From contig NZ_JAENIM010000042.1 in assembly GCF_016595495.1 (NCBI RefSeq), positions 62,001-126,000 of the forward strand: DNA of 64,000 nucleotides, given 5' to 3'. Below are positions 8,291-62,115 of the stretch, piece after piece. The position numbers and the translations under genes were made by a program. Below the pieces are notes generated by a model. That model saw only the letters and a program-made list of their open reading frames with translations. It did no database searches and was not told the origin of the DNA. Origin of the DNA: Persicirhabdus sediminis. Its GTDB lineage: Bacteria > Verrucomicrobiota > Verrucomicrobiia > Verrucomicrobiales > Akkermansiaceae. Each line of letters begins with the position of its first letter. Position 1 is the stretch's first letter.

Positions 8291-8805
8291 GCGCTAAGTA
8301 TGACAATTTCTCCCCTGCTAGCCAGCCCAATTGCATTTCGCAATCTAACTAAGACTGTGGAAAATAGATGTCATATAATTAGATAACAGAAACAAAACAC
8401 TCGTTAGACAGTGTTTACGGCTCTTGCAAAACGTTATACTAAACCGATTATTGAATTTCACCCCAGCATCATAGCGATCAATATAATGTATATCGATTCC
8501 ACATTGGACCGACAAAAGTACATTATATAGCACTCTTTCATCTTTAGTTAAGATTTCTAAATATTATAAAATAACTCGGTCAAAACACTACACAAGTGTT
8601 TGATACGACTACCGAAATATGATTTACTTAGGCACTTTCATACCTCTAATTAGATATTAATTCACAGTCCTTGGGATTGTTAATTCCCCCCCTCCTCCTA
8701 GCTAGTCACTGGGAGTACAAGTGCAACTCGGTTTCCAGCTGCGCTACACACACATACTGCCGATATAAAGGTATTTATTTCACGAAAAACACAACTAGCA
8801 AACCA
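8291..8805. other. Intergenic region upstream of the giant surface protein
   Basis: 515 bases without a convincing gene. It is AT-rich compared with its surroundings. A short open frame of 62 codons on the minus strand (8345-8533) has no recognisable features. The frame of the giant gene stays open upstream to 8671, but those residues (Cys-rich, irregular) precede a good signal peptide and are treated as leader DNA. A promoter for the giant gene must lie here, but no single -35/-10 pair stands out. Confidence 0.5.
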
Positions 8806-11800
8806 ATGAGAGAAAAAACAAGTAAGGCGACGATGGCACTTTGCCTAGCAGGGGCGTTGATAGCGCCCCATGCTCGGGCATTAGAAATCGCCGATGGCAC
8901 ACGTGCGGTGCTGGAAGAATCCAATACATCAGGTGATGACTTGAATATTATCAAAGCTGATGATTTGGATGCAAGTCTGCTATGCGGACTCACCATTAAA
9001 GGCGATGGCTACTACTATGCAGCCAACAATAGGGGCACTTCTGTGGGGCGGAGCTACGCGCAGAACTGCTATCTCGAAGTCATTCAGGGAGGATCTATTA
9101 AGACTGGCTATTTCTATATTGGTAGAGATCAAAATGCTCATAACAACTGGGCTGTGGTAGACGGCGAAGGGTCTGAAGTTAACATTACTAACAAAAGCAA
9201 CGGTCTACGTATCGGTGCAGGAAGTAGTTCTGAAAACTATATGATCATCCGTAACGGTGGCCGCGTTTCCGGTGGCGGTATCGTTAAGCTTGGTAAATCT
9301 GGGGTCACCGCAGGCAAGAACCGCATTGAAATGGATAATGGGACCTTGGTCACCTATCGTTTCCAGATCTATGCAGGTAATGACCTAGTGATGAAGGACT
9401 CCACTATTGAGGTAGATGGGGTAAGCACATCTTCGAACTGGGAAGAAAACGGCTGCCTATATTTTGAGCAAAACGAGCTATCTAACTACGATTTCTCAGG
9501 TAACAATACCATTGCTCTGCTGATTAACCCGGAGGAATTTGATCCTAACTTCAAGCTGTTTGCTGACATTGAAGGAATCAATTTCTACGACGAGTTTTCT
9601 TATTTCTGTAAGGATGACAATGGCGACATGCATCCGATTTCTTGGGACGGCAGTGGCTGGGTGGTACCAACTCACCGCGAGCTGGTTCTCAATAATGAAA
9701 ACAAAACCTACAGCTCAGCTACTGAGGTGGGTGAGGGCAAAAGATACCAATCCATTCTCATCACCGATGGTGGCTCGCTAGATTCTAGCAGCCATATTGG
9801 TTTGGTGGACGAAGGTGAGATTGTTGTTGATAATAGCACCTTAGCAGTGAATACGCTGACTACTGATGTGGGGTCTACTCTGAGCTTCAAAGGTGATACT
9901 CAGCTCATCATCAACTCGTATAAGATTGACGCTGAACCGATCACATTGTTAGGCGATATCGAATGTTCAACTCCGCCAGTGATTGAGCTGCGCTACGATC
10001 CTAACGATTCCTATTTTGGTGACATCAGAATTTTCTCAGCTGAAACTCCAGCTGCGACGATTGATAAGTTTGCCTCATCTGAAGTTAGGCTGAGAAGTTA
10101 TTACACTGATAGAACTTATTCTCTAAGCTACGTTGGCGATGGTGTATGGACGACCAATTCAGGTAGCATCTACGAGGACGATGCGATTGGGCTCACAAGC
10201 ATGAGCTATAAGAGCGTCAAAGTGGGCTGGGGAAGTGTTGGCATTAATACCCGGGTGAAGAACTGGGGGCCGCTAACAGGCGACTCTATCTACTATGAAA
10301 AAGGCATTGCTTGTCATGCTGACAGTGAAGTGGTGTATGAGATCGGTGGCGAATATGCCAAATTCAGAACGATCATTGCGACGCCTAACTCAAAGAGCGG
10401 AGCTGCTATGAACATGAAGATCTACGGTGACGACCAGCTGCTCTACGACAGTGGTGTGATGGCGCGCTACGACCTACAAGAAGTGGAGGTAGACGTGACT
10501 GGTGTGCAAGAGCTACGCTTAGTCGGCGAAGACGCTAAAAATGCAGCCAATGCATTCCATAGCTGGCTGGCGCCGCGCCTCCTTCTACCAGGTGAGTATT
10601 ACCACGAGTTTAACCATAATGATGGCAGCTCAGTTACCATCGACGACGATTACAACCGCTTTGGCGACATTATTATTTCAGGTGACGGCTCTGAGCTGAT
10701 TCTGGGTGATGGTAGCTTGAACGAAGTCAACGGCCAAACTCAGGTCGACAATAATGGCACGATCACCATCACCGATGGTGGCATTCTTAACCTCAATGAT
10801 ACTCTGTGGATTGGTTCAGATGCTGGTGGTGGTACGGTTGAGTTAGAAGACGGCAGACTGGTTGTCGACCGCGTGGGCATTACTGAGGGTAGTTCTCTGA
10901 ACCTCGGTGAAAACCAAACACTGGAATTTTTCCCTTATGATAGAAATGAAAACCCGCAAGATTGGGCAAACAACTCTAGCTTCCTACACATCAACGGTGA
11001 GATCAATCTCTCCGCTGGCAGCGCGATTCACCTCATCTATCCAAATAGCGACTCGATTCCTCTGGCAGTGAACCTGCTGCATTACGAGTCATCTACAAGC
11101 GCTTATGAAACGCTACAAGCGGCACCTATTTACGCCGTAGACGCCGAGACTGGCGAGCTCTACGAGTTGGTTTTCAACAAGGGTTTCTGGATTCGCCCAG
11201 GATTTTTACCCGAAGCCTTCGAGCTGCCATTCAAGGAAACTGGCAAGCGCACGGTAGCCTACATGGCTGAAGATGCCTTCTCACCTGAGCGCCTCGCAGA
11301 TGGTGAAGCGATTTACATCGAAAAATGTGGTGCTTGTCACGGCCACGGTGGTGCTGACATGCCAATGTTTGGTGAGGCATTTAATGATACCCGAGTGGTT
11401 TCTAGTACCAAGAAATTCTCTGGTCCACTTGGTGACCCAGAGGCAGGCGAAAAAGTATTTGAGTTCCTGCGCTACAACCACCCTGGACCATTCCAAAGCT
11501 TTGATGACTCATTCTTGCAGTCTGGCCCATTACAAAAACGTCCTGGTGTGCTCAACCCACATCTGAACCGCTCTGAAGACTTCTATGCGGCGTGGTCAGG
11601 CCACAAGTATCCGGTGATTGAGGATGTTCATTTTGACGAAAACAAATACGACAGAACTCAGCAGTTCTCATACAAGCGCAGGCTGACATGGAACGAATGG
11701 ATTCCACATTTCATTCCACCTAGCTACTCAGCAGACCCAATCGCAGCTCACATTGCTGAGAATGGTACAGGAAAATCATCTCTGAGTGACGCCGCGAAAT

Positions 11801-14800
11801 TATTCAAGAACCTGTACAACCCATTTGGTCAAGCATCTCCTAACTATGAGTTGATGGCAGAAGGAAACTGGGATTACGATACCTTATTCATCGCCCAGAT
11901 GTCGCAGGATAACTGGCTGCGTATTGCCACTTATGAAAACCAACTGCCTCGATGGGTAGACGGTCAGTGGGACAGACCTGGTAACTGGAACTTTGAACTG
12001 GGTTCAGCCATGGACCACGACGTCATCTACTACGGTACGCGTAGTGCTCACGTTGATATCGAGCGCAATGGCCGCAGACAATCAGCCTTCCAGAGAATGA
12101 AACACGGTTGGTGGGACTACAACTCAGGCATTTCTCCTGATAGGGATCCAGCCACTGGAGCTACCTCTGGCCCATGGGGCTGCTGGTGCCCAACATACGG
12201 CAAAGAAATGGAGCACTTCCACCAAACCGTACTCAGATACTTCTCTGTAAAAGGAACTGCTGCTAGCTACGCTAAAGACGGCTCCAAGTCACGCGATAGT
12301 AAGGCCTCACTTGGCTACAAACTGCATGATGATGAAGAGACTTACCTTGGCCGCCGCGCCGTGCTTGAGCACAGCGTTTATTACGACTGGAAAATCCTCA
12401 TTGGCAAGGGAGATGAAACCTCTCTGGTAGGCTGCCTCGCCTGTGATGGCTCTGGCTGTAAGTACTGTGAAGATGGCTACCTGCCTCTCGGCTCAGATTG
12501 GGTAGAATGTGGTCAATGTGGCGGAGAAGGCTGCGATCACTGTGACGGCATCGGTTACCTCGTTTCTGATGACACCTCTAGCGGCCCATTCTCAGACATG
12601 TATAATTATACAGCTAAGTTTGCCCAAGACCCTGCGGAAGAAAAGTTCATGCGCGCATTTGTCCAGCGCTGGGCACGTAATCCACTGCTGCACGGCGAGC
12701 TAGACAGACCAGCGTTGCTGTGTCGTGGCACCGGTCATGTCAAAGTTGGCCAAGAATACAAACTCTACATCATGCGCGCCATGCCCTATGATGGTGATGT
12801 TACCGTGTGGGCGATCAATATGCCATCTGGCGCGAAGTTATCTCGCGAGCCAGATAACATTGGCGAGTACGATTATTTTGTCCGCTGGACACCAACCATC
12901 AATGACATCGGCGAACACAAATTCCGCGTGAAAGCGAAAAGCGACGCGCATTATTCGCAACACGCCTTCCAAGATGTTACCATCAAAGTATCATTAGACG
13001 GACCAACTCCTGAGATTGATCCATTCGACGATCACCAAATCGTCTACAGCGGCCAGAGCTTTGCCCTGCCACTGACCATTTGCTCAGATTTCCGCGAGGA
13101 AATGGAAATGGAACTCGTTGGTTCAGTCGGTGAGATTGTACAAAACCACCGCAAAAAAGGTGGCCTGTACTGGCTCCGCGCTGAAGACAAACACGTAGGT
13201 GTTCACCAGCTGACATTCATCGCACGTAGCGCCTCCGGCTTGGAAAGCAAACGTAGCATGACTCTAGAAGTACGTGCAAACAGTGCCCCAAGTCTCAAAC
13301 TAGCTGAGCAGGGCCAAGGACCTGGTGGATTCAAAAACATCTTCCGCGCCCGCGCTGGTGAGAACCTAGTGGTTAAAACGCTGCTCAGCGAGCCAGATAA
13401 CGACGAAGTGCGTATCAACGTCACTTACGGATTCCCTGGCGAGTACGAGCTGAATGAAGAATCAGGCACTTACGACTTCACCATGGAGGTGACCGACAAG
13501 ATGGCGGCTGAATTCCCAGGACCAAACGTTCTCACCATCAATGCTGAAGACGAATGGGGCGTGAATACTCCACTTGTATTGCTTGTTTACTTTGAGCCAG
13601 CTGGCAGCAACCTCAATCACCACCCATGGGCGGTGACCGGTGGCGTACAATATGTAAACTCTGGCGATAAGGTGACTCTAGATGCATCAGCATCAGATGA
13701 TCCTGATGGCGACGAGATCTACTACAAATGGGCCTACTCTCAAGACGCTGGCAAACCATCTGTAAGCCTGTCATCAACCACAAGCGTGCAGCCAACCTTC
13801 ACCGCACCAAGCGTACAAGAGCCAACCACTCTGAAGTTTGCCCTCACCGTGACCGACAAACCTGGTGATAAAGATGAAAACGTTGCCCGCGTGATCGTCT
13901 ATCCAAAAGGCTGGGATCTGCCTGAAATCGACAACCCATCACACGGTGGAGAACCTGACGAGGACGATACGATTGAGCTCACTGATGCAGAATTCCTCTG
14001 CTACGAAGCTGAACACGGTATCTACCTAGGTGGCCGACTCAATGACATGGAGCACGCCAGTAACCAGCAAATGGTTTACTACCTCTCCGGTACCGACGGT
14101 CGCCTCATCTGGATGCCTCAGATCGAACAAGCTGGCCGCTACCTCGTCGTACTTGATTACGAGTTTGATAACCTGAGCAATACCAAAAGGGATGGAGCCA
14201 TCTACCACAATGACTCACTACTTGGTGAATTTGCCTTCAATAATATTCAAACCGTACCAAGCGGCAGTGCAGCACGTCAGACCAGTATCCGCGTAGGCAC
14301 CGTGACTACCATCCAGCCAGCTGCGGTGAACCCAACTCAGCAACGCTTCATCGCTGAGCTCAGTGAAGGTACCAATACCTTCGAACTCACCATGGCTTCT
14401 GGCCACGCGCTCAATATCGACAGGCTCGTACTCGTACCGCTTCCTGATGCGGAAGACATCTCGTACGCCATCACCATTCCTACCTCTGGCAGCCAGCCAG
14501 AAGTAGCTCCAATGCCAGCTGGCGTCACCTTCCTCAGTGATCTAGAAATGGCATCAGGGTCGAAGAATGGAGAAAATGCCTTTGGCATCGATCAGCAAAA
14601 TAACAACACAGGAGCCATCATCATTGCCGGCATCGAATACGAAAAAGGCATTGGCTGTAGAGCCAACTCAACCATGAACTACCAGCTCAATGGTGAGTAC
14701 TCTACCTTCGTCAGTGATTTTGCTAACCTCTCAGGACGCACAGATCGCTCCATGATCATTACCATCTACGGCGATGGCAAAGAGCTGTTCTATCAGGAAT

Positions 14801-15294
14801 CCATCTGCATCGTCGACCTGGTTCACCTCAACCTCGATGTATCCGGAGTCAATGAACTCAGCATTGTCACCAGTAGATCAAGCTCCACCGGTGGCGCCTA
14901 CGCCGCATGGGCGGGTGCTTACCTCACCAAAAACGACTACGCTGGCTGGGTTGCCGGCCAAGGCAATGTCGACAAGCCGCTCGGCTTGACCACTCCTGAC
15001 GACCTGCCATCAGGTGATCAGATCAGCTTCGACAAGTACGCCTTTGGCGACCACGGTGTGCATCACACATTGCGTCCAGACGGTACATGGGAAACCACAC
15101 ACATGAAGCGTGACAACGTCAGCTACACAACGGAGTATTCATTCGACCTCTCCAGCTGGCAGGCCGTTCCACAAGAACAGCTCAACGCCCAGTACTCATC
15201 CAGCTCAGCTGGTGAAAACATGGCTACCTTCACACTGCCGCCGCAAGACGAGCAGCCGAAGCTATTCATCCGCGTACACGCAGAAGAGGAATAA
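8806..15294 (+). CDS. Giant secreted multidomain protein: NPCBM, cytochrome c site, DnaJ-like Cys cluster, PKD, CBM6-like
   Basis: About 2162 residues from ATG 8806, chosen because a signal peptide follows at once (charged start, then ALCLAGALIAP, cleavage near ARA). Residues about 30-450 are repetitive beta-rich sequence with G-N-D turns, as in beta-helix surface proteins. An NPCBM-like carbohydrate-binding domain lies at about 462-594 and a second at about 1905-2044. A single c-type haem motif CGACH is at 841-845. A cysteine cluster at about 1210-1252 has two units of the form C-x2-C-x-G-x-G-C-x2-C, recalling the DnaJ zinc region. Ig-like stretches follow at about 1314-1600, a PKD-like domain (LDASASDDPDGD) at about 1604-1700 and a CBM6-like domain at about 1729-1880. 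No PEP-CTERM or LPXTG anchor is seen. It is probably a cell-surface glycan-binding protein with a redox centre; its catalytic role, if any, is unknown. Confidence 0.88.
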   Translation: MREKTSKATMALCLAGALIAPHARALEIADGTRAVLEESNTSGDDLNIIKADDLDASLLCGLTIKGDGYYYAANNRGTSVGRSYAQNCYLEVIQGGSIKTGYFYIGRDQNAHNNWAVVDGEGSEVNITNKSNGLRIGAGSSSENYMIIRNGGRVSGGGIVKLGKSGVTAGKNRIEMDNGTLVTYRFQIYAGNDLVMKDSTIEVDGVSTSSNWEENGCLYFEQNELSNYDFSGNNTIALLINPEEFDPNFKLFADIEGINFYDEFSYFCKDDNGDMHPISWDGSGWVVPTHRELVLNNENKTYSSATEVGEGKRYQSILITDGGSLDSSSHIGLVDEGEIVVDNSTLAVNTLTTDVGSTLSFKGDTQLIINSYKIDAEPITLLGDIECSTPPVIELRYDPNDSYFGDIRIFSAETPAATIDKFASSEVRLRSYYTDRTYSLSYVGDGVWTTNSGSIYEDDAIGLTSMSYKSVKVGWGSVGINTRVKNWGPLTGDSIYYEKGIACHADSEVVYEIGGEYAKFRTIIATPNSKSGAAMNMKIYGDDQLLYDSGVMARYDLQEVEVDVTGVQELRLVGEDAKNAANAFHSWLAPRLLLPGEYYHEFNHNDGSSVTIDDDYNRFGDIIISGDGSELILGDGSLNEVNGQTQVDNNGTITITDGGILNLNDTLWIGSDAGGGTVELEDGRLVVDRVGITEGSSLNLGENQTLEFFPYDRNENPQDWANNSSFLHINGEINLSAGSAIHLIYPNSDSIPLAVNLLHYESSTSAYETLQAAPIYAVDAETGELYELVFNKGFWIRPGFLPEAFELPFKETGKRTVAYMAEDAFSPERLADGEAIYIEKCGACHGHGGADMPMFGEAFNDTRVVSSTKKFSGPLGDPEAGEKVFEFLRYNHPGPFQSFDDSFLQSGPLQKRPGVLNPHLNRSEDFYAAWSGHKYPVIEDVHFDENKYDRTQQFSYKRRLTWNEWIPHFIPPSYSADPIAAHIAENGTGKSSLSDAAKLFKNLYNPFGQASPNYELMAEGNWDYDTLFIAQMSQDNWLRIATYENQLPRWVDGQWDRPGNWNFELGSAMDHDVIYYGTRSAHVDIERNGRRQSAFQRMKHGWWDYNSGISPDRDPATGATSGPWGCWCPTYGKEMEHFHQTVLRYFSVKGTAASYAKDGSKSRDSKASLGYKLHDDEETYLGRRAVLEHSVYYDWKILIGKGDETSLVGCLACDGSGCKYCEDGYLPLGSDWVECGQCGGEGCDHCDGIGYLVSDDTSSGPFSDMYNYTAKFAQDPAEEKFMRAFVQRWARNPLLHGELDRPALLCRGTGHVKVGQEYKLYIMRAMPYDGDVTVWAINMPSGAKLSREPDNIGEYDYFVRWTPTINDIGEHKFRVKAKSDAHYSQHAFQDVTIKVSLDGPTPEIDPFDDHQIVYSGQSFALPLTICSDFREEMEMELVGSVGEIVQNHRKKGGLYWLRAEDKHVGVHQLTFIARSASGLESKRSMTLEVRANSAPSLKLAEQGQGPGGFKNIFRARAGENLVVKTLLSEPDNDEVRINVTYGFPGEYELNEESGTYDFTMEVTDKMAAEFPGPNVLTINAEDEWGVNTPLVLLVYFEPAGSNLNHHPWAVTGGVQYVNSGDKVTLDASASDDPDGDEIYYKWAYSQDAGKPSVSLSSTTSVQPTFTAPSVQEPTTLKFALTVTDKPGDKDENVARVIVYPKGWDLPEIDNPSHGGEPDEDDTIELTDAEFLCYEAEHGIYLGGRLNDMEHASNQQMVYYLSGTDGRLIWMPQIEQAGRYLVVLDYEFDNLSNTKRDGAIYHNDSLLGEFAFNNIQTVPSGSAARQTSIRVGTVTTIQPAAVNPTQQRFIAELSEGTNTFELTMASGHALNIDRLVLVPLPDAEDISYAITIPTSGSQPEVAPMPAGVTFLSDLEMASGSKNGENAFGIDQQNNNTGAIIIAGIEYEKGIGCRANSTMNYQLNGEYSTFVSDFANLSGRTDRSMIITIYGDGKELFYQESICIVDLVHLNLDVSGVNELSIVTSRSSSTGGAYAAWAGAYLTKNDYAGWVAGQGNVDKPLGLTTPDDLPSGDQISFDKYAFGDHGVHHTLRPDGTWETTHMKRDNVSYTTEYSFDLSSWQAVPQEQLNAQYSSSSAGENMATFTLPPQDEQPKLFIRVHAEEE

Positions 15295-21432: not shown

Positions 21433-23433
21433 ATGCGAGTTATCATGCCAGACGAGCCCATCAACGAGATCGAAGAAGAAGTGTACGAGGAGAGCCTCGG
21501 TGAGATGTACTCCGACTACTTTTTGGACTACGCAAGTTATGTTATTTTAGAGCGCGCCGTGCCTCATTTGGGTGACGGTTTGAAGCCCGTTCAACGACGC
21601 ATCTTGCACTCCATGAAAGAGCTCGATGACGGTCGCTATAACAAGGTGGCCAACGTGGTGGGCAATACCATGAAATACCACCCACACGGTGACGCATCGA
21701 TTGGTGATGCCATGGTCCAGCTGGGGCAAAAAGACCTTCTCATTGATACCCAGGGTAACTGGGGAAATACACTCACTGGCGACCCAGCTGCGGCGCCACG
21801 ATACATTGAAGCCCGCCTCACCCCCTTTGCGCTTGAGGTTGCCTTCAACCCAAAAACCACCAAATGGACACGCAGCTACGACGGCCGCAACAAAGAGCCC
21901 GTCACCCTGCCGATGAAGTTTCCACTACTGCTTGCTCAAGGGGTAGAAGGCATCGCCGTGGGATTGGCCTGTAAAATCCTCCCGCACAACTTTAACGAGC
22001 TGATTGACGCCTGCATCGCCGCACTGCGCAACCAGCCAATCAACATCGTGCCCGACTTCCCAACTGGCGGGCTCATGGACGCCAGCGACTACCGCGACGG
22101 CCTGCGTTCACGCGGCAGCAAAATCCGCGTTCGTGCGCGCATCGAGGTAGCTTCAGCCAAGCTTCTGCGTATCGACGAGATTCCATTTGCCACCACCACT
22201 GGCGGACTCATCGACAGCATCGTCTCAGCCAACGAGAAAAACAAAATCAAGATCGCCCGCGTGGAGGACAATACCGCCGCCAAAGCGGAAATTCTTGTCC
22301 ACCTGCCAGCTGGCACCGACGCCGAAACCATCCGCGAAGCGCTCTACGCCTTCACTGATTGCGAACTCAGCATCTCCCCCAATGCCGGCGTCATCACCGG
22401 CGACAAACCCAAATTCATGGGCGTCAGCGAGATCCTCAAGGCCAGCGCCGAAGAGACCAAGGAATTACTCCGCATCGAGCTGGAAATCCGTCTCGCTGAG
22501 CTGATGGAAAAATGGCACTTCAGCTCATTGGAGAAAATTTTCATCGAAAACCGCATCTACCGCGACATCGAAGAATGTGAGACATGGGAAGCCGTCATCG
22601 AAGCCATCGACACCGGCCTCGAACCTCACAAGAAAAAGCTCAAGCGCGAAGTCACCGAGGACGACATCGTGCGCCTCACTGAGATCCGCATCAAACGCAT
22701 CTCTAAATTCGACAGCTTCAAGGCCGACTCCATCATCAAAGCGCTGGAAAATGATATCGATCAGGTTGAGAAAAACCTGCGCAGCCTCACCCGCTTTGCC
22801 ATCAACTACTTCAAGAGTTTGCAGAAAAAGTACGGCAAAGGACGCGAGCGCCGCACCGAGATCACCGAGTTCTCCGTGGTCAAGCGCACGCAAGTCGCCG
22901 CCGCTACCGAGACACTTTTCCTCGACCGCAAAAATGGCTTTGCTGGCTGGGGTCTGAAAAAGGAAGAATCCATCGACAAATGCTCACGCATGGATGACAT
23001 CATCACCATGCTGCCTACAGGCAAAGTCACAGTTTCTAAAATTTCAGAGAAAGCCTTTGTTGGCCAGCGCCCAGTCTACTTCAACATCTTCCGCAAAGAC
23101 GAAGAGAAAATCTTCTCCGTGATGTACCGTGACGGTCGCCAAGGCACCGTGTACGCCAAACGCTTCCGCATGGGCGGCGTCACCCGCGACAAAGAATACG
23201 ACCTTACACTGGGCTCCCCAGGGTCGCGAATTCTCTACTTTGCCGTGCACGACAGCGAGCAAGACAGCAACGATAACGAAGTCATCGTTCACCTCAAACC
23301 ACTACTGCGCCTGCGCAACCTCGACCGCACATTCAAGTGGGAAGACATCGCCATCAAAGGTCGCAGCGTCAAAGGCAACATCGTTAGCAAACAACCGGTC
23401 GACCGCATCGTGCGCGCACCCAAAAGCGAATAA
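21433..23433 (+). CDS. parC: Type IIA topoisomerase subunit A (ParC/GyrA-like, short form)
   Basis: 666 residues. This is the DNA-cleaving subunit of a type IIA topoisomerase. The N-terminal winged-helix region has YASYVILERAVPHLGDGLKPVQRR and the quinolone-resistance region KYHPHGDASIGDAMV. The active-site tyrosine is Y124 in APRYIEARLT. The coiled-coil follows at about 350-450, and the C-terminal part is much reduced compared with GyrA. The GyrA-box (QRRGGKG) needed for DNA wrapping is absent, so ParC (topoisomerase IV) is the better call. No parE lies in this window. The start is ATG 21433; ATG 21445 is an alternative, and neither has a clear ribosome-binding site. Confidence 0.9.
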   Translation: MRVIMPDEPINEIEEEVYEESLGEMYSDYFLDYASYVILERAVPHLGDGLKPVQRRILHSMKELDDGRYNKVANVVGNTMKYHPHGDASIGDAMVQLGQKDLLIDTQGNWGNTLTGDPAAAPRYIEARLTPFALEVAFNPKTTKWTRSYDGRNKEPVTLPMKFPLLLAQGVEGIAVGLACKILPHNFNELIDACIAALRNQPINIVPDFPTGGLMDASDYRDGLRSRGSKIRVRARIEVASAKLLRIDEIPFATTTGGLIDSIVSANEKNKIKIARVEDNTAAKAEILVHLPAGTDAETIREALYAFTDCELSISPNAGVITGDKPKFMGVSEILKASAEETKELLRIELEIRLAELMEKWHFSSLEKIFIENRIYRDIEECETWEAVIEAIDTGLEPHKKKLKREVTEDDIVRLTEIRIKRISKFDSFKADSIIKALENDIDQVEKNLRSLTRFAINYFKSLQKKYGKGRERRTEITEFSVVKRTQVAAATETLFLDRKNGFAGWGLKKEESIDKCSRMDDIITMLPTGKVTVSKISEKAFVGQRPVYFNIFRKDEEKIFSVMYRDGRQGTVYAKRFRMGGVTRDKEYDLTLGSPGSRILYFAVHDSEQDSNDNEVIVHLKPLLRLRNLDRTFKWEDIAIKGRSVKGNIVSKQPVDRIVRAPKSE

Positions 23434-23514: not shown

Positions 23515-23940
23515 ATGCTAAAATGGGCAACATGCCAACTGCTCCTAGCTGGCCTAGCCGCCAGCTGGTGCGTGGCCGACGAGCTGGACACATCCATTGC
23601 TCGCGGTGAAAAAATCTACCAGCAAGAATGTCTCGAGTGCCACATGGACGACGGTACCGGCGTGCCAGAAGTATTTCCCCATCTAGCTGGCTCAGCTACT
23701 TTTGCCAAATCCGCCGACCGCATCATCGACTCGATACTCGCCGGCAACGAAGGCCAGCTAGTGCTCGACGGTCAGAACTACACCGGGCTGATGCTTCCCG
23801 TGCCGCTTGAGAATGCGGAAATTCTCGACCTGCTGCGCTACATCTACGCCAGCTGGTACCCGCAGAGCAAAGTGAAGTTAGACGTGAAAATGATCCAGCT
23901 GCGGCGCGCTCTAGCAGCAGAGAAAAAACAAGAGCCGTGA
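23515..23940 (+). CDS. Exported monohaem cytochrome c
   Basis: 141 residues: a signal peptide (about 1-21), then one haem-binding motif CLECH at about 39-43 and a likely distal methionine in GLMLPV, an arrangement typical of class I cytochromes c that carry electrons in the periplasm. The segment ILDLLRYIYASWYPQ matches the C-terminal helix of small cytochromes c that partner oxidases or alcohol dehydrogenases. The last bases of the gene overlap the hairpin that terminates the convergent regulator gene. Confidence 0.9.
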   Translation: MLKWATCQLLLAGLAASWCVADELDTSIARGEKIYQQECLECHMDDGTGVPEVFPHLAGSATFAKSADRIIDSILAGNEGQLVLDGQNYTGLMLPVPLENAEILDLLRYIYASWYPQSKVKLDVKMIQLRRALAAEKKQEP

Positions 23941-47489: not shown

Positions 47490-49754
47490 CTATGGCGTAG
47501 CTAGCACATCCACTTTCCAGCGGAAAAAGCGCGCATCCAGATCCAAATCTACTTTAATGCGGATTTTGCCATCCACCACTTCGGCGACACCTGAATTTGC
47601 CCACAGCTCTAGGTCTTGAGAATATTGCCCCCGGAGCTCCACGCCCATGGTGGCTAGGTTCCCCGAAAATGGCGACTCGAGAACCAAATAACCGTCTTCG
47701 ACGTATGGTTTCAGAACCGTGCCGGTATCAAATGCATTGGTGGGATCTAGGCCTAAAGCAAACTCCAGACCGTTGCCCAGGCCGTCACCGTCGTCGTCGT
47801 CGCTGAAACTATCAATGCCTGAAAAATCAGCTTCTTTCCATGCTTCCCAGCCAACAAGCGCGCCATCAGGCACCACGGTGAGCATCGGCCCGTATGGGTA
47901 CCAGTAATTGCCCATGCGAGTGCGTTTGCGCAAGATGTACTGCACGCCGTCCTGCAAGCTGCCACCAGCTGAAGAACTATCAAAGCTGACAACTGAGGCG
48001 TCTCCTGAATATGAGGTTGTTCCCTGAGGAACCAGCTGCTTGCTGTTGCTAAGGCTGATATTATCAAGAAAAGCGCCATTGATGTTTGCTGTCTCTGCAG
48101 GGAAACAGAAACTCTCGGTCTTATGAATCCTGAAGCGGATTAAAACTGGCTCTCCTATATACTCCACTGGAATGGCCACCGATCTCTGAATAAACGAGCC
48201 ATCGGTGATGGTCCACTGCCTAGTAGCTTCAATATACTCAGAGCTACCCGCATAATCGGCGATCGACTCCCATTTCGCGTATCCAGCGGAAATTTCTACT
48301 GATAATACCGCGGTCGGCATCATGTAAGCGCGACGTAATTTGAATGATAAGGTCGCGCCACTCTGCGGAATCATGGTTCTTTCAAAACCAAACATCTCCG
48401 AATTACGACTGTAGCGGCTAAATCCGAGCCGATAGGACCTACTCCCGTTCGCAGCTAACCAGTTCGAGGTAAGCGTATATTCAGAGCCTGTGCCGTCCCA
48501 TAAATTTACAGTGGAACCACCCTCAGCGTTCCATGTCTGTGACAAAGCTCCAATTTGGGTCACTTGGAATTCGTGCTCCTCAGCATCATCAACTGACTCA
48601 AATGTGTATCTCGCGCCACTGACTGGTGGAATTTGGGTACCCGCTAATGATTGATCTTCACCCAACCCGTCGACATTAAACACTGTAACCTTGTAGCTGT
48701 AGGCCTCAGCCACTCCCCCTATTAATATATTAGAAACGGTAACGTGATATTCGGCATCTTCCGCTACTGAGTTACTGACACCATCAAGTTTCCAAACGAT
48801 GCTATTATCTCCTTTGAAAACATTTGGATCCGCATCAGTAATGGTCAGAGACATTGGATTGCCGTCCTGATCTGTCACTGAGACCGCAGCGGCAGAGAAA
48901 TCGGCTCCCCAACGACCCAGCGACCAATGAGTTGGGACTAGTTTATCAGGAAAATACCCTTGATTAGGCCATGGAACAAATTGTTGACTAACATCAAGTT
49001 TCTCCTCTTGGCGTTGGAAAATATATAATGCATTAGCGGCATACCTCAAAACTGAGCCTTCCACGCTGTCAATGGTATCGCCTGTCGCCATGGTGGTTGC
49101 TCTAGTATATAAGATCCAGCGTCGGTGGCCAGCTGAAGCATCAAAGGTTGCCAAAGAATCAGGATCATTCTCCCTCATGTAGGCGTCCATAGCACCAGGC
49201 CCATACAAACCAACAGACAGGTTACTATATTGGGCGCCATTCCAACCAGCGAAAGTGAACTTTGGCCAACTCGAAGATGGGTTGTGACTCGTATTGTTGC
49301 CCGCCGACATCATAAATGCGGCGCGCTGGGCGGCGGCTTGTTTGGTAGTGGCGGCTCCTGGATAGAAGGTATCGGCATCACTGCCAGCCACGGTATGGGT
49401 ACTGGAGAAATCAATGTTAGCTGGCACACCAGCCATGGCGCGGTAAAAGTTCACCCGGCGCTGCACGTCATCTTTGAGTGCCTGTGTGGTAGAGCCGTGG
49501 TTATTGCCGCTGTAGCTGCCACCGTACCAATCGTTACTGCGTGTTTTGTAGGCTTCAGACTCGGCGTACACGCTGTGGTAGAAACTCGCTACATCATTGC
49601 GGCTGGTGGTATCGACGGTAAATCCGCTCACAGCAGATGCATTTCCTGGTCCTGGCTGCCATGCAAACACGGGCGCAAAAAAAGCCAGCATCGCCATGAG
49701 TGATATGGAAATGATGGTTGTAGGGGTATTACATCTTGTCGCTGGGATCGGCAA
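47490..49754 (-). CDS. Secreted CAP-domain protein with calcium-binding C-terminus
   Basis: 754 residues with a signal peptide (about 1-31). The CAP/SCP-like domain (about 60-290) contains AGHRRWILYTRA, the conserved H-R-R-W-I-L motif. A central beta-sandwich region follows (about 330-600), then a short repeat DDDDGDGLGNGLEFALGLDP like thrombospondin type 3 or dockerin calcium loops, and a C-terminal domain. CAP proteins are widely secreted and may act in adhesion or enzyme inhibition; the role here is unknown. Confidence 0.85.
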   Translation of the reverse strand: MPIPATRCNTPTTIISISLMAMLAFFAPVFAWQPGPGNASAVSGFTVDTTSRNDVASFYHSVYAESEAYKTRSNDWYGGSYSGNNHGSTTQALKDDVQRRVNFYRAMAGVPANIDFSSTHTVAGSDADTFYPGAATTKQAAAQRAAFMMSAGNNTSHNPSSSWPKFTFAGWNGAQYSNLSVGLYGPGAMDAYMRENDPDSLATFDASAGHRRWILYTRATTMATGDTIDSVEGSVLRYAANALYIFQRQEEKLDVSQQFVPWPNQGYFPDKLVPTHWSLGRWGADFSAAAVSVTDQDGNPMSLTITDADPNVFKGDNSIVWKLDGVSNSVAEDAEYHVTVSNILIGGVAEAYSYKVTVFNVDGLGEDQSLAGTQIPPVSGARYTFESVDDAEEHEFQVTQIGALSQTWNAEGGSTVNLWDGTGSEYTLTSNWLAANGSRSYRLGFSRYSRNSEMFGFERTMIPQSGATLSFKLRRAYMMPTAVLSVEISAGYAKWESIADYAGSSEYIEATRQWTITDGSFIQRSVAIPVEYIGEPVLIRFRIHKTESFCFPAETANINGAFLDNISLSNSKQLVPQGTTSYSGDASVVSFDSSSAGGSLQDGVQYILRKRTRMGNYWYPYGPMLTVVPDGALVGWEAWKEADFSGIDSFSDDDDGDGLGNGLEFALGLDPTNAFDTGTVLKPYVEDGYLVLESPFSGNLATMGVELRGQYSQDLELWANSGVAEVVDGKIRIKVDLDLDARFFRWKVDVLATP

Positions 49755-58308: not shown

Positions 58309-61300
58309 CTATTCCTCAACAATCACGCGGAAGCCAACATTGAATACCTGCTGGAAGCTTGGGTAAGCTAAGCGGTAGCTAGATGTTGAACGGTGCGGGC
58401 GATCGCGCCATGAACCACCACGTACTACCATGTCACTACCAACTTGCTCAGTGGCGTGGCCATCTTGCAGTGGGTATGGCTGGTAGATGGAGCGAGTCCA
58501 TTCTGCAACGTTACCGTGCATGTCGTAGAGACCCCATGGGTTGGCTTTGTACTTACCACCTTCGTTGTGGAGAAAGTAACCATCATCTACTGACTTGTCA
58601 GCTGGGATGTAGGCCTCGTACTTAGTTGGATCTTCCAATGTGATAACACCGAAGTATTTGAATTCGCCCTTAGTTGATGTGTCCGTAGCGTACTGCTCGG
58701 TAGCTTTATCAGCTAAGTTAGCAAACTTGCTGAAATCACTGCCATACTCGCCAAACGAGAATGGTGTGGAAGTACCAGCGCGGCTTGCCCACTCCCACTG
58801 CACTTCGCTAGGCAGAGTGACCTTTTTGCCAGTCTTTTCAGACAACCACTTACAGAAAGCCATAGCTTCGTCCCAGCTTACACGAACGGCGGCGCGAGGG
58901 TCGTCGTTGACGTCAAAGCCAGTTTCACCAAATTGGTAACCTACACGGTGCTCGTGGCGGCTGTGGTGATCAGGATTGAACTTACGTAGCTGTTCGTTGC
59001 TGATTTCCATTTCTGCCATCCAGAACCCTTTGTCTACCTTCTGCTTGTGCATTGGCAGTTCGTCGAGTGCACCATCAGCTGAGCCCATTACAAACTCACC
59101 AGCTGGGATGTAAACTAACTTGATGCTCATGCCGTCGCCGAGGTCCAGAGTGATTGGCTCTTTGCTGTCGTCAGAGATCTTCGCAGCAAACTCCATTTTA
59201 CCTTTAGCACGCTGTGCGATTTCAGCTGAGTTATCTGGCTTGATTGGCTCGATTTTTTCAACCTTCACATCTTGATCAGCAGAGACAAAGTGATCTCTCT
59301 TCAGGCCATGGTGCTCGATCATTTCTTTTGATCTCACCATCGCACGCTTCACAGCGGCTTCAGCTCTGAGACCTTCGACAATGCGCAGGCGGACACCGTG
59401 GTATGGTGTGTTCATGTCCATCCACTCGTAGAGGCGAGACCATTCATCTTGGTCGAGCTCAACACCGTGGTGACCTTTTTTCAGCATCTGTACGAGCTCA
59501 GTCGTATTTGCGCTGAATTCTTTCGGCGTCAATACGTGCATATCACTCTCGATACCTGGGCCACGTGACATCTTGAACATCTCAAAGTAACCTTTGGAGA
59601 AGGCACCACCACCATTTTGTGGCTTAAGCTGGCCACCAAAACGTGTGGACCAATCTTCAATCATATCAGAGCCAAGGTATGGGATTGGCTTACCTTTGTA
59701 ATCAGCACGCAATGTTTCATAGCGGCCGTCAGCTGGTTTGCCGTCGTGACAAGCCATACAGTGTTGATCAACGATTGGCTGAATTTCAGTATCGTAGTCG
59801 AAGTTGTGACCGCGACCATTCCATGGCTTGATCTCATTTGGCTCTTTCAGTGAAGCCAGTGTGCGCTGTGGCACTGGGGTATCAGCGGCACTTTCGTGAC
59901 AACCAATACAAGAAACACGCTCACCTGGCTGACCGACCATCCATGTACGCATCAACTGCAGCGCTTGGCCGTCTTCATCCAATGGCTGAAGGAAAACTGG
60001 TGTCATCGCTGGGATGTTGAAGTGTGCGGAGCCGTCTTCGTAAACAGGAACGGTACCTAGGACACGTTTGATGTCCCAAGGGCCATCTGCACCCAATGTA
60101 CCAACGTTACCACCACTACCAGCACTGTAGTTTAACTTCTTAGGATCTGAGCTACTTGGAGCGAATTCGTAAGTAACCACACGGAGTGATTTTACTTCAC
60201 CTTTTGGCAAGCCAGCAAGGCCTGGACCTTGGTAAACATCTTGGATGAATACGCTAGCATCTTCGGCTCCCTCGACAATGCGCGATGGGCGCATCTTAGG
60301 ACGCTCACGAGATTTCAAGGCTACTGGCTCAAAGCTAGCTAGACCTTCAGTTTCGTGAAGTAGAATTTGGTTGTCGAAAGTATCAACCAAGTAGATGCCC
60401 CAAAGTGAGTCTGCATTTGGCTTCATCGCAGTGAGGAAATATTTTCCTGCACCAAGATCAGTACCACTCTGCGCCACTGGATGTGGATGCACGTTTTGTG
60501 GCCACATTCCGTCGCCCTGACGGTCTTTTACTTCTGGCTCAACTTTGATGCCACGACCTGGGATTTCCTGGATCACGCCGTCAGCTTCATGTTCGCCGAG
60601 TGTGCGGTCAACTAGCAGCATGCGGCCAGTTCTTGAGAACCCGTGGTGACCTGTAGCAATACCAACAACTTTGCTGGAGCTACCTGGCACTGGCGTCGCA
60701 TAGAAGAATGACGCTGGGAAATAAGAGTTGGAGAACATGAATGAACGCTGGTTGGAACCATCTGGATTCATGCTCATAAGAACGCGGTTGTTGGAGTGCA
60801 CCATATCGCTGTACTCCCAGCGCAGATAAATCACGCGACCGTCATTCAGCACGGTTGGGCACCAGCTGCTGTCTTGGTCAAATGACAACTGGCGAGTTTT
60901 GCCAGTCTTTGGTGAATATCTGAAAAGGCTAGCCATACGTGGGCCACCATTAATACATGGCATTCCCAAGAATGTGGCGGTAGATGTGAAAATGATATCG
61001 CCATCTGGAAGGTAACAAGCGTCAAAGTGGTCAACATCAGCACCTTCCTCGTTAGTGGTCACTTGCCTTGTTTTTCCTGTAGCAAGGTCCAGCTCATAGA
61101 GTCTGAATGAGCTCTCTTCGTTAACAGAAGTGTAGAGCACTCTCTTGCCGTCGAAATCAAGATCGATGTCGGAAACCAATATGTCTTTGTTTGGCTTGTA
61201 GACCGTCTCCAGCTCAGGCTTGGACTTGAAGTTTTTCAACTTCATGATCTCATTACCTTTGCTGTCTCTGTATGCACTGTGCATAGAGAAGGCATTGTTT

Positions 61301-62115
61301 CTGGTAAAACCAAGACGCTGCCCCATGGCTGATCTTGCCGCGCCACCGAGGTTACGGCGAACAAACAAGATGTCATCGAAGTCCAAGGCTGGGTTCGCAA
61401 ATAAAGCTTCACGCTTCAGCTCCTGCAGCTGCTTGTTTTTCTCTTGAAGGTCAGAAATCGCTTCTACTTTCGCCAGCTTGGCGAGGAATCCTTTAGCTTC
61501 GTACTCATTCGGGAAAGTTTGAGCGAGGTCGTCGATAGCAAGTTTCAGCGAGGTGATCTGCTGGCCTACAGAAAAGGCATTGCGGCGCTCTTCAAATGGT
61601 ACTTTAGAATCTACAGCTTTAGGTGGATCAGCAGGCTTGCTTGATAAAATGCGGAAATGCACAGCGCCATCTTTACCCGTCTCTGGGTTCAGGCCGCTCA
61701 AGCCACTCAGGCTTACTGCCTCAGCTGGAGCGATCCATCGCATCACGGTTCTAGCTGGTGTCAGCATGGCACCTTTTGGCGCAAAGCTCAGCTTATCCTG
61801 CCACTTGCTCTCTTGGCCTTCAGGGGTGATAAGCACCTTCAAGTCACTTGAGTTAAGCGTGGTGGATTTCCCCGCTGCATCCTGCCAGCTGAGTTCAGTC
61901 CATACCGCTTGGTCGTTTTTCGAAGTCTTACCTACAGAGTAGACCTCAAGGAATACTGCTTTGGATGGTGTTACTTTAGCCTGCCAGCTAAATAACCCAT
62001 CTTCTGCCAAAATCACTGGCGATTCATACAGCGCGCTGCTCTGTGGACTGGCCGACACAGAGGCTACCGCACCGAGCATCGCCCCGCACATACTAACTAA
62101 GGAATATTTCATCAT
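58309..62115 (-). CDS. Propeller / dihaem cytochrome c / SUMF1 fusion protein (complete copy)
   Basis: 1268 residues with a signal peptide (about 1-22). N-terminal beta-sandwich to about 300; from about 315 a TolB-like propeller with DIDLDFDGKRVLYTS, DACYLPDGDIIFTST and SSWCPTVLNDGRVIYL, like hydrazine synthase alpha-subunit (HzsA)-related proteins. Two c-type haem motifs, CIGCH at 736-740 and CMACH at 786-790. From about 987 to the end, a SUMF1/EgtB/PvdO-type domain (LVYIPAGEFVMGSADG, LPSEVQWEWASRAGT, PWGLYDMHGNVAEWT, VVRGGSWRDRPHRS). The cysteine pair that binds copper in aerobic formylglycine-generating enzymes is absent. Likely an exported redox protein; the reaction is unknown. Confidence 0.9.
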   Translation of the reverse strand: MMKYSLVSMCGAMLGAVASVSASPQSSALYESPVILAEDGLFSWQAKVTPSKAVFLEVYSVGKTSKNDQAVWTELSWQDAAGKSTTLNSSDLKVLITPEGQESKWQDKLSFAPKGAMLTPARTVMRWIAPAEAVSLSGLSGLNPETGKDGAVHFRILSSKPADPPKAVDSKVPFEERRNAFSVGQQITSLKLAIDDLAQTFPNEYEAKGFLAKLAKVEAISDLQEKNKQLQELKREALFANPALDFDDILFVRRNLGGAARSAMGQRLGFTRNNAFSMHSAYRDSKGNEIMKLKNFKSKPELETVYKPNKDILVSDIDLDFDGKRVLYTSVNEESSFRLYELDLATGKTRQVTTNEEGADVDHFDACYLPDGDIIFTSTATFLGMPCINGGPRMASLFRYSPKTGKTRQLSFDQDSSWCPTVLNDGRVIYLRWEYSDMVHSNNRVLMSMNPDGSNQRSFMFSNSYFPASFFYATPVPGSSSKVVGIATGHHGFSRTGRMLLVDRTLGEHEADGVIQEIPGRGIKVEPEVKDRQGDGMWPQNVHPHPVAQSGTDLGAGKYFLTAMKPNADSLWGIYLVDTFDNQILLHETEGLASFEPVALKSRERPKMRPSRIVEGAEDASVFIQDVYQGPGLAGLPKGEVKSLRVVTYEFAPSSSDPKKLNYSAGSGGNVGTLGADGPWDIKRVLGTVPVYEDGSAHFNIPAMTPVFLQPLDEDGQALQLMRTWMVGQPGERVSCIGCHESAADTPVPQRTLASLKEPNEIKPWNGRGHNFDYDTEIQPIVDQHCMACHDGKPADGRYETLRADYKGKPIPYLGSDMIEDWSTRFGGQLKPQNGGGAFSKGYFEMFKMSRGPGIESDMHVLTPKEFSANTTELVQMLKKGHHGVELDQDEWSRLYEWMDMNTPYHGVRLRIVEGLRAEAAVKRAMVRSKEMIEHHGLKRDHFVSADQDVKVEKIEPIKPDNSAEIAQRAKGKMEFAAKISDDSKEPITLDLGDGMSIKLVYIPAGEFVMGSADGALDELPMHKQKVDKGFWMAEMEISNEQLRKFNPDHHSRHEHRVGYQFGETGFDVNDDPRAAVRVSWDEAMAFCKWLSEKTGKKVTLPSEVQWEWASRAGTSTPFSFGEYGSDFSKFANLADKATEQYATDTSTKGEFKYFGVITLEDPTKYEAYIPADKSVDDGYFLHNEGGKYKANPWGLYDMHGNVAEWTRSIYQPYPLQDGHATEQVGSDMVVRGGSWRDRPHRSTSSYRLAYPSFQQVFNVGFRVIVEE

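Follow-up and report, generated by a model that had tools for sequence, protein, structure and literature searches.

The window analyzed here is a stretch of 64,000 nucleotides from Persicirhabdus sediminis (contig NZ_JAENIM010000042.1, positions 62,001 to 126,000 of the forward strand). It contains a gene for a giant, putatively exported protein, hereafter paralogue A, in which a predicted c-type haem attachment site, an unrecognised core and a cysteine module are combined with glycan-binding-type domains. The open frame extends from 8671 to 15294 and offers two starts, an in-frame TTG at 8671 and an ATG at 8806. The ATG is preferred because it results in a clean Sec signal peptide, MREKTSKATMALCLAGALIAPHARA, and because the residue numbers of an earlier, sequence-only reading of this DNA match it. 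That reading had placed a CGACH haem site at residues 841-845 and two CxxCxGxGCxxC units about 370 residues further on, and with the ATG start both positions are right, the cysteine cluster beginning 369 residues after CGACH. Not included in it were three paralogues of the protein and the ∼300-residue unrecognised core that separates the two motifs. The features that carry the argument are as follows.

8806..15294, + strand: whole gene of paralogue A, 2162 residues, ATG start preferred
8806..8880, + strand: Sec signal peptide, residues 1-25, with an AxA-type end (HARA), as read from the sequence
11266..11520, + strand: cytochrome-c-like region, residues 821-905, the most conserved part of the family
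11326..11340, + strand: predicted haem attachment site CGACH, residues 841-845
11365..11367, + strand: Met854 (in MFG), a candidate distal haem ligand of uncertain role, 9 residues past the haem His
11479..11481, + strand: His892 (in NHPGPF), a second candidate distal haem ligand, equally uncertain, 47 residues past the haem His
11521..12420, + strand: unrecognised core, residues 906-1205
12433..12543, + strand: cysteine module, residues 1210-1246, two CxxCxGxGCxxC units 25 residues apart, CLACDGSGCKYC...CGQCGGEGCDHC

The three further paralogues encoded in the genome, B (1939 residues), C (1946 residues) and D (1709 residues), share 47-53% identity over a 567-residue query and likewise possess signal-peptide-like N termini. 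The genes for B and C are arranged in tandem on contig C39, 310 bases apart, and that for D is located on C21; those for A and D lie singly, each surrounded by unrelated genes. A NusG/KOW antiterminator-like gene (L008:7350-7943, - strand) lies shortly downstream of paralogue D. Inspection of the upstream regions of the four genes revealed no convincing common motif, and a search against a defence-system library gave no match.

Silent sites are at or near saturation between the paralogues. Nonsynonymous divergence (dN) was lowest of all in the haem region (residues 806-905), with values of 0.05 for B-C, 0.19 for A-B and 0.20 for A-D, and ranged from 0.15 to 1.26 outside it, including 0.37-1.23 in the C-terminal glycan-binding modules. 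Glycan-binding-type modules flank the haem region and core and differ most among the paralogues. As judged from the sequences, this is what would be expected if the putative haem site were strongly constrained and the small metal-type site were surrounded by residues free to vary.

No homologue was detected in 289 and 388 genomes of the phylum or in 244 genomes of the family, these phylum and family samples overlapping one another, and the weak matches in the phylum search mostly reflected an Ig-like stretch. Two genome_contigs pattern scans, one viral_contigs scan and plasmids were also negative; the contig scans require a short exact peptide pattern and may miss distant relatives. The architecture, which the sequence-only reading had proposed to seek in related genomes, was found in the three paralogues of the same genome, each with CxxCH and the second cysteine unit, and in none of the other genomes searched. 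The family is apparently lineage-restricted, with four copies in one genome.

Residues 821-905 are 72-91% identical among A-D, with 54 of 85 columns invariant, and CxxCH is retained in all four proteins, as are Met854 and His892. Pfam PF13442 (cytochrome c, cbb3 subunit III type) matched residues 829-870 with E values of 4e-5 to 1.6e-4, covering only positions 2-43 of the 68 in the profile. The score was 24.3 bits on the core (E 4e-5) and 27.7 bits in the genome search, compared with a cut-off of 27. The NCBIfam model ccoP matched one paralogue (E 7e-5), and hhalign against a profile of nine cytochromes from the same genome, a one-profile comparison, gave E 5.7e-8 over 26 columns. The likeness to PF13442 proteins lies in the N-terminal helix pattern G..IY...C..CH and is limited to the first helix and CxxCH; unlike in those proteins, no Met ligand or final helix could be recognised. 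Alignment with the other cytochromes of the genome did not locate the distal ligand, the global and the multiple alignment placing the final helix differently. The homology around CxxCH upholds the claim of a c-type haem site in an exported giant protein, and a c-type haem domain is likely to be present in the family.

The second cysteine unit retains all four cysteines and both glycines of CxxCxGxGCxxC in A-D. The first unit is exact in A, takes the form CxxCxGxxxxCxxC in B and C, and is absent from D. The earlier claim of two units is consequently good for paralogue A and needs correction for the family. Paralogue A contains four CxxC knuckles (eight cysteines), three of them with the full CxxCxGxG, and D contains two. 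A genome-wide search of the DNA for CxxCxGxGCxxC yielded five places, all within the A-D genes, compared with none for the reversed control, and the pattern was absent from 20,000 shuffles of the paralogue A protein. Across the phylum it was present in 11 of 388 genomes including P. sediminis, a frequency comparable to that of the reversed control, and the remaining hits that were inspected were not in convincing relatives. In the cysteine region dN was 0.5-0.6; residues between the cysteines drift, and the Cys/Gly skeleton stays. These observations support maintenance of the module by selection, and it is likely to be functional.

The module had been described as DnaJ-like, which is correct as a resemblance, the CxxCxGxG knuckles (among the four CxxC knuckles, with eight cysteines, of A) being like those of the DnaJ cysteine-rich domain PF00684. 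Membership of that family was rejected: PF00684 scored 14.7 bits (E 0.037), below the curated cut-off of 32.7 bits, and the true DnaJ of the genome was alone in passing the threshold. The DnaJ domain has four CxxCxGxG knuckles, set at a distance from one another, that bind two zinc ions, whereas the knuckles of the paralogues abut in pairs and bring together four thiolates per pair. Export together with a haem site and lack of a J domain are further differences. Stand-alone relatives of PF00684 have been described, namely BSD2/ZnJ2, LQY1 and CYO1 (PMC5818400, PMC3800646). A search of solved structures with the cysteine module by itself gave no match. Because D has exactly one knuckle pair and A has two, the sequences suggest that one metal may be bound per pair; D lacks exactly one whole unit, the behavior expected of independent metal sites. 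By default the metal would be zinc, by analogy with DnaJ and ZnJ2 (PMC5818400), with iron or disulphides as alternatives.

Between the two motifs, the core (residues 906-1205) contains 72 columns that are invariant in A-D, rich in Trp, His and acidic residues and including a lone Cys1126. It matched no Pfam or NCBIfam model at E<=10, and nothing beyond chance was found among solved structures. AlphaFold2 run without an alignment on 514 and 141 residues gave mean pLDDT (predicted local distance difference test) values of 31 and 35 and no usable model.

The remainder of the chain comprises the following features.

8881..10170, + strand: beta-repeat-like N-terminal region, residues 26-455, poorly conserved
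10192..10581, + strand: NPCBM domain, residues 463-592 (Pfam PF08305, E 8e-46 over two stretches)
12706..13605, + strand: Ig/cadherin-like linker modules of the He_PIG/Big_9 type, residues 1301-1600, from profile matches
13648..13899, + strand: PKD domain, residues 1615-1698 (Pfam PF22352, E 4e-11)
13993..14445, + strand: CBM6/CBM35-like module, residues 1730-1880, assigned by eye, with a CBM_35 match (E 0.003) in one paralogue
14488..14940, + strand: second NPCBM-like module, residues ∼1895-2045, boundaries approximate, from the second PF08305 stretch and alignment with B-D
14983..15291, + strand: C-terminal tail, residues 2060-2162, ending S.DL..W ... F.R.

Over residues 30-780 paralogue A is only 20-25% identical to B-D, in which F5/8-type C (discoidin) domains replace the beta-repeat-like region. 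Profile matches give good support for the NPCBM, PKD and F5/8 domains; of the modules that had been read into one exported chain, NPCBM and PKD were confirmed by Pfam, and the CBM6-like assignment is weaker. Related Ig-like stretches occur in other genomes of the phylum.

The tail pattern S.[DS]L..W ... F.R also ends the proteins encoded at 47490-49697 of the window (- strand), at L007:16059-18098 (+ strand) and at L054:6249-9704 (- strand), the last being a fusion of a lytic polysaccharide monooxygenase (LPMO) with a chitinase. The common pattern was without significance when assessed with hidden Markov models. The short tail that the four putative cytochromes share with these proteins is possibly a secretion or surface tail.

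Attachment of a c-type haem, as previously pointed out, calls for a cytochrome c maturation system, and one is encoded: a ResB gene (E 1e-19) adjoins one for a CcsA-type protein (PF01578, E 4e-23) at L055:9462-12639. Given this adjacent pair, System II maturation of c-type cytochromes is probably available to the cell. Further c-type cytochromes are encoded in the genome. One, at L067:1276-2871 (+ strand), is another glycan-type cytochrome that unites cytochrome c with a PA14 domain. Within the window, a small exported cytochrome c with a CLECH motif (23515-23940, + strand) is encoded directly after the gene for a gyrase/topoisomerase IV subunit A (21433-23433). An exported protein of 1268 residues (58309-62115, - strand) matches the hydrazine synthase alpha middle domain (E 1.3e-32) and an FGE-sulfatase domain (E 1.3e-36) and has two CxxCH motifs.

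The genome also encodes a single LPMO of family AA10, the protein at L054:6249-9704 (- strand), in which it is fused to Calx-beta, CBM2 and GH18 chitinase domains. The predicted mature LPMO begins with His (SAHGTVADP). AA10 was detected in 8 of the 388 sampled genomes of the phylum.

The nearest characterised precedent for such a combination is Cbp2D of Cellvibrio japonicus, which comprises CBM2, FN3, YceI/X158 and the c-type haem domains X183 and X132 (PMC8981238). The X183 haem domain of Cbp2D (CjX183) reduces AA10 LPMOs (PMC8981238), and growth on insoluble cellulose requires cbp2D (PMC12542752). The A-D proteins resemble Cbp2D in that a secreted chain carries both a glycan-binding module and a c-type haem site in an organism with an AA10 LPMO, and the haem domains of Cbp2D have a single CXXCH each, as in A-D. 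In contrast to Cbp2D, the A-D proteins have CBMs of other families and an unrelated core, and the published domain list of Cbp2D is without DnaJ-like cysteines. No Pfam match to the YceI-like X158 domain was present in any of A-D; the haem domain was compared with generic cytochrome profiles, none of which is named for X183 or X132. That the A-D family might reduce LPMOs is a hypothesis formed by analogy.

The PSCyt1-3 and PSD1-5 proteins of Verrucomicrobia and Planctomycetes offer a second comparison. In these a c-type haem is joined to NPCBM, CBM6, PA14 or F5/8 domains; their function has been described as unknown, with a role in carbohydrate metabolism suggested (PMC5615132). They and A-D are alike as multi-domain proteins of the Planctomycetes-Verrucomicrobia-Chlamydiae group that unite a c-type haem site with glycan-type modules. 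Membership of A-D in these families was rejected, no Pfam match being obtained in any of the four (core at E<=10) when a positive control, L066, did match. This control protein (L066:1932-5363, + strand) matches PSCyt1, PSCyt3 and PSD2-5 strongly; a zinc-ribbon-like cysteine segment lies at the start of its open frame, which is without a signal peptide, leaving start codon or fusion uncertain.

With these precedents, including the cytochrome c-PA14 protein of the same genome, the novelty that the sequence-only reading suggested for a redox-active glycan-binding protein does not hold (PMC8981238, PMC5615132). Joining of a c-type haem to NPCBM, CBM6 and F5/8 modules was already known in Verrucomicrobia (PMC5615132). 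What is new is a recurrent family that combines a haem site, an unrecognised core and an abutting CxxCxGxG module, is apparently restricted to one lineage and is present in four copies.

The explanation that we favour, with a probability of about one half, is that A-D are four paralogous, lineage-restricted and secreted c-type cytochromes that are bound to glycans and contain a structural module of metal and cysteines; they may serve the oxidation of polysaccharides outside the cell. Each chain would be exported by Sec and would receive one haem from ResB-CcsA (System II). The NPCBM, F5/8 and CBM6-like modules would anchor the protein to extracellular glycans, and the paralogues may be suited to different glycans because the glycan-binding parts vary most. 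Each four-cysteine unit would hold a single metal, with structural zinc the likeliest, and would brace the end of the core. Electrons would be relayed by the haem, which would have the core or a partner enzyme on one side and the respiratory chain of the cell, or else an extracellular oxidase, on the other. An LPMO is one candidate partner, by analogy with Cbp2D of Cellvibrio. Such a role is worth testing because the genome encodes an AA10 LPMO, because AA10 is rare in the phylum sample, and because of the Cbp2D precedent.

Several points count against this explanation. Binding of haem, metal and glycan is in each case predicted. The cytochrome match ends after ∼40 residues, the C-terminal half of the fold is unrecognised, and the distal ligand was not found. 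Cysteines outside the cytoplasm could form disulphides. Co-occurrence with the LPMO was noted post hoc and in one genome only; in the phylum homologue search the family was not seen in the other seven genomes that have an LPMO, and the four genes are unlinked to LPMO or respiratory genes.

In the main rival to an LPMO-serving role, the core would be a haem-dependent enzyme in its own right, which might act on the bound glycan as an oxidase, a dehydrogenase or a peroxidase, to give examples. The cytochrome-like segment would then be its cofactor site and the cysteines a brace, with no LPMO partner. This is somewhat unlikely, if the strongest of the alternatives. The 72 invariant columns, with many Trp, His, Asp and Arg residues, and the invariance of M854, H892, H942, H968 and the lone C1126 count in its favour; haem and core always occur together, and the cytochrome fold seems incomplete, as though the core finishes it. 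Against this, the core has no likeness to any known enzyme in Pfam, NCBIfam or solved structures, the AlphaFold2 runs gave no usable model, and its conservation is lower than that of the haem region.

The cysteines of the module may alternatively form disulphides or take part in thiol-disulphide exchange, with electrons running between cysteines and haem, rather than make up a structural metal site. Even cysteine counts (eight or four), the CxxC pairs and the exported location are consistent with this, as is the precedent of LQY1 and CYO1, DnaJ-type zinc-finger proteins with activity like that of protein disulphide isomerase in thylakoid membranes (PMC3800646). It is nevertheless clearly unlikely: the conserved xGxG that follows each CxxC is typical of metal knuckles and not of the thioredoxin type, Cys and Gly alone are kept in the module, and Pfam searches gave no match to a thioredoxin fold. 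Also doubtful, and to be held with little confidence, is a glycan-anchored electron relay in which the c-type haem, one or two rubredoxin-like metal-cysteine sites and an unrecognised catalytic core would together serve extracellular polysaccharide oxidation, the four paralogues addressing different glycans.

That the proteins are adhesion or biofilm proteins, large discoidin/NPCBM/PKD surface adhesins in which the haem region and the cysteine module have a structural role or are vestiges, is improbable. Adhesion or glycan-binding modules do make up most of the chain, and the gene neighbourhoods are without redox metabolism, but no segment is under stronger constraint than the haem region, which would not be so for a vestige. 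Scarcely credible is an origin of both motifs by chance in a long protein, a reading rejected as far as sequence allows: although CxxCH arises in 0.6% of shuffles of the long paralogue A protein and the cysteine pattern is at reversed-control level elsewhere in the phylum, the genome-wide count and the cysteine shuffles oppose it, and both motifs are retained in four paralogues with saturated silent sites.

How electrons are supplied to extracellular polysaccharide-oxidising enzymes in bacteria is largely open, and Cbp2D is a rare characterised case. If the favoured explanation is true, the A-D family would represent a second, unrelated design in Verrucomicrobia, one with a core domain of its own and an integral cysteine module; this would suggest more than one origin of glycan-bound cytochromes and would offer a defined protein for experiments. 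Should the core turn out to be catalytic, it would constitute a new enzyme family.

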